64,000 nucleotides of DNA from Nitrospina sp. LS_NOB (GTDB lineage: Bacteria > Nitrospinota > Nitrospinia > Nitrospinales > VA-1), in NCBI GenBank assembly GCA_001542995.1, contig LFLA01000012.1, positions 62,001 to 126,000 on the forward strand, given 5' to 3'. The notes beneath the pieces are model-generated. The model was not told the origin of the DNA, ran no database searches, and saw only the letters and a list, made by a program, of their open reading frames with translations. Positions 37,848 through 39,105 of this stretch are shown here, piece by piece; within the stretch, counting starts at the first letter, position 1; every line of letters starts with the position of its first letter. Made by a program: the position numbers and the translations under genes.

Positions 37848-38084
37848 TTAAGAATTGACCGGATAGGTCTTTTTAAGATAGTCGATGATTTCGTATTCAT
37901 CGTCAAGGACGACACCGCCATCGACCAAAACCGGGACGGTGGTTTGCCCCGATATTTCGTGTACTTCCTGGCGTTGATGATGGGGCCAGGGGACATCTAT
38001 TTTTTCATATTCCAGACTCATTTGCGCCAGAACATCTCTAACCATAGCGCAGTAACCGCATCCGTCTAAATTATAAAGTTTCAT
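37848..38084 (-). CDS. Glutaredoxin-family protein
   Basis: A 78-residue glutaredoxin/NrdH-like protein. It begins MKLYNLDGCGYCAM, with the redox motif C-G-Y-C at residues 10-13. The GSH/cis-Pro block TTVPVLVDGG is near residues 48-57. The end is YEIIDYLKKTYPVNS. It probably reduces disulfides or handles glutathione adducts in the cytoplasm. An in-frame ATG at 38105 would add seven residues (MREALTQ), but the family start and the duplicated upstream copy both begin at MKLYN. The native 5' end has been duplicated: an adhesin gene now lies between this copy and a second copy of the first 43 bases. Confidence 0.85.
   Translation of the reverse strand: MKLYNLDGCGYCAMVRDVLAQMSLEYEKIDVPWPHHQRQEVHEISGQTTVPVLVDGGVVLDDEYEIIDYLKKTYPVNS
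38042..38084 (-). repeat. 43-base direct repeat, proximal copy (glutaredoxin 5' end)
   Basis: Matches 39063-39105 at 41 of 43 positions. It is the first 43 coding bases of the glutaredoxin gene. The pair brackets the adhesin gene, with 1021 bases from copy to copy. Confidence 0.9.
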
Positions 38085-38106
38085 CTGCGTTAGAGCTTCT
38101 CTCATT

Positions 38107-39066
38107 TCATCTTAAGTTTATGGACACGCCGACGCCACCAGCAAAGTCATTGGTGTTCATTCCTGTAGCAATTTTCGCTGCGATTTGCCAACGATTATGC
38201 AACCTCGCAGCCAAACCTAGCGAAACAGCGTGTTTATCATTAAACGTCCCTACCGCCATCGTTAGATTGAGTCGTTGACCTTCATCTAATCCAGGCATGA
38301 CGCCCATTGCAACTGCCATAGCCACGCCGCTCGATAATTTATTTTCAAGGCGCCCAATCTGTTGATGAATGCTACGCAATGCGGAACTGTTGACTTGCTT
38401 AAATACCTTCGTTTCAATTTCCCTAATTGTTTCCTCTTCAATTGTTCCTGACACGCCCTGCGCCCCTTGAATTCCCCTCTGACCATCAGCTCCCACAGCT
38501 CCATCAACTCCATTAGCCCCCCTCCCACCATCAGTTCCATTTACTCCCTGAAGCCCTCTTTGACCAGCAACTCCCACAACTCCATCAACTCCATTAGCCC
38601 CCCTCCCACCATCAGTTCCATTTACTCCCTGAAGCCCTCTTTGACCATCAGCTCCCTGAAAGCCTCTCTCCCCTCTCCTTCCTTGCGCCCCTGGGGGGGG
38701 GGGGGGGGGGGGGGGGGGGGGGGGGGGGGGGGTGGACTCAATAATTCTGATACGCTCGACCAAGCTATCACTCCCTCCTTTTATTACCACACCTGCTATT
38801 TCAACTCGACTATGCGTGTGGCTTTGCCCAATTACAATTTCACCCTCGCCAGCCGTCGTTCCTTGACCAATCGCAATAGCCCAATCGCCTGATGCAGTGG
38901 CGAACGTGCCAATCGCAATGGTATCTCTGGATGATGCAGTGGCGGACGGCCCAATTGCAATCGAGGGATTCCCGCTCGCAGCCGCGCTCCGGCCAAGTTG
39001 AATGTCATCTACTGATTGCGCGCTTGCGCTCGCTACGAAAAGCATTGCGACCGCCAACCATGCCAT
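38107..39066 (-). CDS. YadA-like trimeric autotransporter with collagen-like stalk
   Basis: A compact surface adhesin, 319 residues from the ATG at 39066. It has a signal peptide (MAWLAVAMLFVASASAQS) and YadA head repeats (SIAIGPSATASS, TIAIGTFATASG, AIAIGQGTTAGE). Thirteen prolines follow, encoded by the G40 run. The collagen-like G-X-Y stretch of about 90 residues has two 27-residue repeats. A short coiled coil (IREIETKVFKQVNSS ... IGRLENKLSS) leads to a C-terminal YadA anchor of about 70 residues ending NDFAGGVGVSINLR. The open frame also extends upstream to 39108 as an N-terminal fusion to the first glutaredoxin codons (MMKLYNLDGCGYC). The anchor trimerises to form its own outer-membrane pore. 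The sequence is inserted between direct repeats of the glutaredoxin 5' end. Confidence 0.9.
   Translation of the reverse strand: MAWLAVAMLFVASASAQSVDDIQLGRSAAASGNPSIAIGPSATASSRDTIAIGTFATASGDWAIAIGQGTTAGEGEIVIGQSHTHSRVEIAGVVIKGGSDSLVERIRIIESTPPPPPPPPPPPPPGAQGRRGERGFQGADGQRGLQGVNGTDGGRGANGVDGVVGVAGQRGLQGVNGTDGGRGANGVDGAVGADGQRGIQGAQGVSGTIEEETIREIETKVFKQVNSSALRSIHQQIGRLENKLSSGVAMAVAMGVMPGLDEGQRLNLTMAVGTFNDKHAVSLGLAARLHNRWQIAAKIATGMNTNDFAGGVGVSINLR
38485..38646 (-). repeat. Two 81-base tandem repeats in the collagen-like region
   Basis: Two adjacent 81-base units encode 27-residue collagen-like blocks beginning GQRGLQGVNGTDGGRG and differing at only a few positions near the end (GVVGVA versus GAVGAD). 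Flanking sequence has further partial units (GQRGIQ). Copy number could change by slippage or recombination, altering stalk length. Confidence 0.85.
38693..38732 (-). repeat. Homopolymer of 40 G (C on coding strand)
   Basis: An uninterrupted run of 40 G on the plus strand inside the adhesin ORF. As read, it keeps the frame open and encodes most of 13 prolines. A change of one or two bases would remove the collagen-like stalk and the membrane anchor. The exact length is also the part of the window most prone to sequencing error. Confidence 0.9.
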
Positions 39067-39105
39067 GGCGCAGTAACCGCACCCGTCTAAATTATAAAGT
39101 TTCAT
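39063..39105 (-). repeat. 43-base direct repeat, distal copy
   Basis: Second copy of the glutaredoxin 5' end, fused in frame to the adhesin. Two differences from the proximal copy, both synonymous or at the junction. Just outside it, two 15-base near-identical units (AAAACTACCTTATAG type) lie at about 39109-39137. Confidence 0.9.

Follow-up and report, generated by a model that had tools for sequence, protein, structure and literature searches.

Gene organization at the glutaredoxin locus

We analysed a continuous 64-kb stretch of the genome of Nitrospina sp. LS_NOB (the window; positions are counted from its first base). In this window, a gene for a trimeric autotransporter adhesin lies within a conserved gene cluster, between two copies of the 5' end of a glutaredoxin gene. 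The order on the minus strand is the upstream gene, repeat copy 1, the adhesin, repeat copy 2, the body of the glutaredoxin gene and a lysine-2,3-aminomutase-like (LAM-like) radical SAM gene. The features are as follows.

39132..40532, minus strand: conserved upstream gene encoding 466 aa without a Pfam match; 23 nt separate its stop from the duplicated ATGATG with which the adhesin starts
39107..39138, minus strand: native glutaredoxin leader, now the leader of the adhesin, with a 16-nt tandem duplication, AAGGTAGTTTT(A/G)CTAT, inside it
39063..39106, minus strand: distal (upstream) repeat copy, read as target duplication, which, fused to the adhesin, provides its start codon and its first 14 codons (MKLYNLDGCGYCAM)
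38107..39108, minus strand: trimeric autotransporter adhesin ORF, 333 aa, with a putative signal peptide, YadA head repeats, poly-Pro, about 28 Gly-X-Y triplets and a YadA anchor
38086..39062, minus strand: 977 nt between the repeat copies, read as inserted DNA, without a transposase or integrase ORF
38693..38732, minus strand: 40-nt homopolymer, read as C on the coding strand and as G on the plus strand, which specifies most of the 13 prolines that separate the head from the collagen-like stalk; a candidate switch for phase variation
38480..38656, minus strand: 81-nt (27-residue) tandem repeat in the collagen-like stalk, from self-comparison of the window
38042..38085, minus strand: proximal repeat copy, read as target duplication, which now forms the 5' end of the glutaredoxin gene, itself intact
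37848..38105, minus strand: glutaredoxin gene, with its native start at 38084 and a possible extended start at 38105, one base past the adhesin stop
36603..37721, minus strand: LAM-like radical SAM gene, lying downstream in the conserved cluster

The original prediction had reported a direct repeat at 38042-38084 and 39063-39105 with 41 of 43 bases identical. Self-comparison of the window recovered it at those coordinates and extended it by one more base (38085, 39106), giving 44 nt with 42 identities (E ~3e-13). The longest identical block common to both copies spans at most 24 consecutive bases. Only three direct-repeat pairs in the window reached E < 1e-10: this one, the 81-nt tandem inside the collagen-like segment, and a pair at an msrP-like gene that flanks a restriction-modification (RM) cassette. 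The outer contexts of the glutaredoxin repeat are native, as copy 1 follows the upstream gene and the leader (AAGGTAGTTTT-CTATG ATG) and copy 2 runs into glutaredoxin, which agrees with what a target duplication predicts. The 16-nt tandem duplication of the leader is restricted to this genome, and the congeners have a single copy.

The distal copy is joined in frame to the adhesin, as had been proposed. The adhesin starts with ATGATG; the second of these ATGs is codon 1 of the duplicated glutaredoxin start, and the 14 duplicated codons continue directly into adhesin sequence AWLAVAMLFVASASAQS, so that the predicted N-terminus of the fused protein is MKLYNLDGCGYCAMAW. The reading frames also bear out that a possible ATG of the adhesin's own coincides with glutaredoxin codon 14. 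Downstream of the adhesin the glutaredoxin frame is intact (Pfam Glutaredoxin, 9e-13). It may carry a 7-residue N-terminal extension, MREALTQ, encoded by insert DNA, and the native ATG is also retained. The stop codon of the adhesin (TGA) lies one base ahead of the ATG that opens the extended glutaredoxin; therefore, translational coupling is possible, and transcription and translation of the cluster can continue.

Domain composition of the adhesin

The adhesin had been described as a complete and very compact YadA-like protein. Its completeness was upheld, because Pfam found the head, the collagen-like segment and the anchor, all above cut-off: YadA_head (PF05658) at 3.5e-8, Collagen at 1e-11 and YadA_anchor (PF03895) at 1.5e-7, the last with 31.8 bits against a cut-off of 22.7. 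The emphasis on compactness was not, since about 330 aa is short but not exceptional for a trimeric autotransporter. The PDB matches, to head structures of YadA and other trimeric autotransporters (1p9h, 3s6l, 3wp8), were weak. An N-terminal hydrophobic stretch, AWLAVAMLFVASASA, is followed by QS and resembles a signal peptide as judged by eye and by hydropathy. The protein resembles the YadA-type trimeric autotransporters (type Vc secretion) in its signal-peptide-like start, YadA head repeats, stalk and YadA anchor. It differs from them in its Gly-X-Y collagen-like stalk with a homopolymer-encoded poly-Pro stretch, and in ending with an Arg (...VSINLR) rather than the usual aromatic residue, a terminal feature that is common but not defining for type Vc. 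The only other YadA-anchor gene of the genome (L208, C12:1-1044) begins at a contig end and has a 12-nt G run in the region of its putative signal peptide and a stalk of coiled-coil repeats.

The poly-C tract and probable phase variation

Apart from the 40-nt tract, no G run in the window exceeds 6 nt. We tabulated the reading frame for tract lengths within 36-45 nt: tracts of 37, 40 or 43 C keep the anchor in frame, and the other lengths tested end the protein at residue 151-162, before the anchor. The exact length of the tract is uncertain, as it was taken from the assembly sequence.

A genome-wide count gave 25 runs of G or C with a length of 10 nt or more (loci L196-L218), where an estimate from base composition at 46.5% G+C predicts about 2, and at least 7 of them are 22-40 nt long. 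Among the congeners, only G005 and G010 have runs of at least 16, a comparison to be read with the fact that short-read assemblies may break at such runs. Tracts lie in a fucosyltransferase-family gene, in a polysaccharide flippase-like gene (its match is just below cut-off) and in the second YadA-anchor gene at the contig end, and another lies just upstream of a large putative surface protein. The fucosyltransferase-family gene (Glyco_transf_10; L215:1174-2217), with a 10-nt run, is part of a glycosyltransferase cluster, and phase-variable fucosyltransferases are known in Helicobacter. In the flippase-like gene (L210:1356-2060) a 30-nt C run is soon followed by the end of the frame, which may represent an OFF state.

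Poly-G/C contingency (phase-variation) genes occur in Campylobacter, Helicobacter and Neisseria. The genes found here are like them in the long in-frame G/C homopolymer and in the classes of gene concerned (adhesin, fucosyltransferase-family protein, flippase), whereas the host phylum differs. The long G/C tracts of this genome look like a set of contingency genes with the adhesin among them, and because its tract is one of the 25 runs, the adhesin is probably phase-variable. In the literature examined, no paper links Nitrospina to phase variation, and the only match for Nitrospina and autotransporter concerns the outer membranes of Firmicutes.

Empty sites in relatives and origin of the adhesin

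The named relatives in a species-genome collection are Nitrospina and Nitrospinota metagenome genomes. We compared the locus in 15 other genomes of the genus, in all of which the glutaredoxin gene was located. The comparison with relatives lacking the adhesin, which the original prediction had put forward as its check, gave a uniform result: all 15 congeners have the upstream ORF next to glutaredoxin, with neither adhesin nor repeat between them, and the upstream gene, glutaredoxin and the LAM-like gene stand together. Measured between the final sense codon of the upstream ORF and the ATG of glutaredoxin, the gap is 7-15 nt for 14 of the 15 and 199 nt for one; the exception is G015 (L021), the spacer elsewhere being about 12 nt. 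The gene order of the cluster is also present in relatives at the family and order levels.

No homologue over the whole length of the adhesin was found in the 15 congeners, and matches outside this genome were to collagen-like segments of other proteins. When the collagen part was removed from the query, the 64 genomes of the order gave no match outside this genome. In addition, no homologue or donor was found in phages or plasmids and none was confirmed in the species-genome collection, and the viral contigs searched for a donor gave collagen-like matches only.

The empty site in all 15 congeners indicates that the adhesin at glutaredoxin is derived rather than ancestral. The scenario that it was ancestral at this site and lost in the relatives found nothing in its favour and has against it these empty sites, the lack of a close homologue in the 64 genomes of the order and the confinement of the repeat to this genome, and we regard it as extremely improbable.

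A second insertion at the msrP-like gene

At 18.5 kb from the adhesin insert, the window contains its only other non-tandem pair of direct repeats of similar strength, 47 nt long with 95.7% identity (57635-57681 and 59957-60003). The repeated sequence is the 3'-terminal part of a molybdopterin gene that is msrP-like (Pfam Oxidored_molyb), and the two copies enclose an RM cassette.

59957..60003, minus strand: 47-nt repeat copy 1, the present 3' end of the msrP-like gene, with the new end ...GEFVAKMYT*
57721..59771, minus strand: cargo, a type II DNA methyltransferase (58735-59771, two frames) and an HNH restriction endonuclease (57721-58728); Pfam N6_N4_Mtase, MTaX1 and HNH_2; PADLOC MTase_II and HNH
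57635..57681, minus strand: 47-nt repeat copy 2, after which come the native end of msrP (...GDFVAHLYS*) and the native downstream gene

The MTaX1 domain belongs to the HNH endonuclease. The methyltransferase is split into two overlapping frames at 59220-59301, a frameshift that reflects decay or an assembly error. In 13 congeners msrP is directly followed by the gene found here beyond copy 2, which is the empty site, and the msrP ends of these genomes (mostly ...HLYS* or close) agree with copy 2 and not with the new end KMYT*. Thus, two transposase-free inserts lie 18.5 kb apart, each between copies of a gene end of about 45 nt and each leaving its target readable.

A wrong join of contigs through a repeat or a poly-G tract, in assembly or in binning, might give the same picture at glutaredoxin, and the draft genome does consist of 26 contigs, three of which (C12, C13 and C19) begin at or within ~25 nt of a G/C run. 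Such a chimera is nevertheless very unlikely, because the repeat copies share no more than 24 identical consecutive bases, the adhesin reads in a single frame across its two halves and has its domains in normal order, and the same architecture arises independently at msrP; moreover, both outer flanks are the correct native neighbours.

Mode of insertion

Classical hallmarks of a transposon were looked for in the adhesin insert, and its sole ORF is the adhesin, with no transposase domain in Pfam. The adhesin and RM inserts were compared end to end for transposon inverted repeats without a significant match, and no integrase or recombinase ORF was found in either.

Two routes other than transposition were weighed against insertion with long target duplication. 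First, a recombinase acting in trans may have joined a small circular or linear cassette whose att site matched the glutaredoxin 5' end, giving attL and attR in the manner of islands that integrate at the ends of genes. In its favour, each of the two insertions in the window is placed exactly at the end of a gene and leaves that gene working, and the new msrP end KMYT* is similar to the native HLYS*, as though a replacement end had come with the cassette. On the other hand, neither insert has a recombinase gene and the two target sequences share no evident common core, which makes such integration less likely; in addition, inserts of 1-2.3 kb are far below the usual size of islands. We consider this route improbable. 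Second, transforming or broken DNA may have been captured at a staggered or template-switched break, in which case the 44-nt duplication would be a filled-in overlap formed with no dedicated mechanism. That the targets differ, that the repeats differ slightly in length and that the insert ends are not conserved fits such illegitimate repair, as does a short inverted match at one end of the RM insert (p ~0.003, uncorrected). The corresponding match in the adhesin is not significant (p ~0.06), and two very similar events (44 and 47 nt, gene ends, targets spared) within 20 kb speak against chance capture. We give this second route a modest chance. It overlaps with insertion with long target duplication, which is without a proven enzyme; illegitimate repair may be its real mechanism, a possible route behind the same phenomenon that fits equally well. 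The inverted match between insert end and repeat was also considered as a hint of hairpin-primed template switching, but with p values of ~0.003 (RM) and ~0.06 (adhesin) before correction for multiple tests it is not claimed.

The explanation that we consider likely is that insertion with long target duplication brought a foreign trimeric-autotransporter gene of about 1 kb to the glutaredoxin 5' end, that the poly-C tract of this gene is an ON/OFF switch and that excision is possible. The evidence comes from a single genome. From the repeat, the fusion, the domains, the empty sites of the relatives, the tract and the reading frames, we infer the following course. The adhesin gene would have entered glutaredoxin at its 5' end, within the conserved cluster, the first 44 nt of the target would have been duplicated, and the insert would have ended up between the copies. 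The upstream copy would have retained the native leader and start codon in frame with the adhesin, and the duplicated codons would supply its translation start and the n-region of its signal peptide, including Lys2; lacking these codons, the putative signal peptide would have only ~16 residues and no positive charge. Expression from the old glutaredoxin promoter and start site, as was originally suggested, is plausible, and the product would presumably serve in adhesion. The downstream copy would regenerate glutaredoxin. At its length in the assembly the poly-C tract would keep the reading frame open (ON), and any change other than by a multiple of three would truncate the protein before the anchor. 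Finally, recombination between the 44-nt copies could remove the adhesin and restore the ancestral glutaredoxin gene.

Comparison with known insertions

Insertion with long target duplication is a little-understood route reported chiefly for RM genes of Helicobacter. In Helicobacter pylori it was reportedly described by Nobusato et al. in 2000 and by Furuta et al. in 2010, and we know of no enzyme or repair route that accounts for it. According to published descriptions, such insertions occur in H. pylori genomes and are often linked to RM genes (PMC1643837; PMC3031569), and the duplications are long and of variable length, of the order of 100 bp (PMC3874152). The duplications of 44 and 47 nt found here exceed the usual transposon duplications and lie below that order (PMC3874152). 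The adhesin locus resembles the H. pylori insertions in its compact transposase-free unit, its flanking direct repeats derived from the target, the empty site of the relatives and the readable target gene. The usual RM cargo, an association in the literature rather than a formal definition, is present in the msrP case and is replaced at glutaredoxin by an adhesin; the previous examples in the literature examined carry RM genes and no adhesin. The adhesin case differs further in its shorter duplication (44 nt), in the in-frame capture of a start codon and in its host, a marine nitrite oxidiser. As far as the literature examined shows, the adhesin cargo, the start-codon capture and the host are new to insertions of this kind.

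The HpyAII RM system of H. pylori can be deleted or restored through recombination at its 80-bp flanking repeats (PMC7494987). The adhesin likewise has flanking direct repeats that could permit precise loss and regain of the insert, and by this analogy the 44-nt copies could release it. The two differ in that the repeats here are half as long, the cargo is not RM and no excised form was seen.

We surveyed direct repeats in ~850 kb of this genome (the window and 40 stretches of 20 kb, slightly overlapping), a sample rather than a census. Most were dispersed intergenic repeats, tandem repeats or tRNA genes, and two further insertion candidates were found. One, apparently older (L264:1343-4902; C24, 321.3-324.9 kb), comprises genes for a PDC-S18 candidate defence protein (PADLOC), a GNAT protein and a DUF6010 protein, flanked by diverged copies of a TPR-type gene's 5' end, with a candidate duplication of several hundred nt. 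In the other (L257:15370-16733; C5, 155.4-156.7 kb), the gene for a type IIG restriction-methylation enzyme has its 3' end repeated over 56 nt, and a TPR gene lies between the copies.

Implications

The original observation was confirmed, and its reading as an insertion is supported; it had mentioned neither long target duplication as a route nor the poly-C tract nor the second case in the window. The adhesin case stands beside an RM case in the same 64 kb, in an unrelated phylum, which argues that this route is not driven by RM genes alone. A single such event can hand a promoterless gene a ready start site while the target is not destroyed. It is possible, if on balance doubtful, that insertion with long target duplication serves this marine Nitrospina lineage as a general route of gene mobility without a transposase, one that places phase-variable adhesins and defence genes into the ends of housekeeping genes, where they capture the start or stop and remain removable through their own repeats. 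The many long G/C tracts, together with the adhesin, suggest that a free-living nitrite oxidiser uses surface variation of the type found in mucosal bacteria, perhaps, as we may speculate, against phages or grazers.
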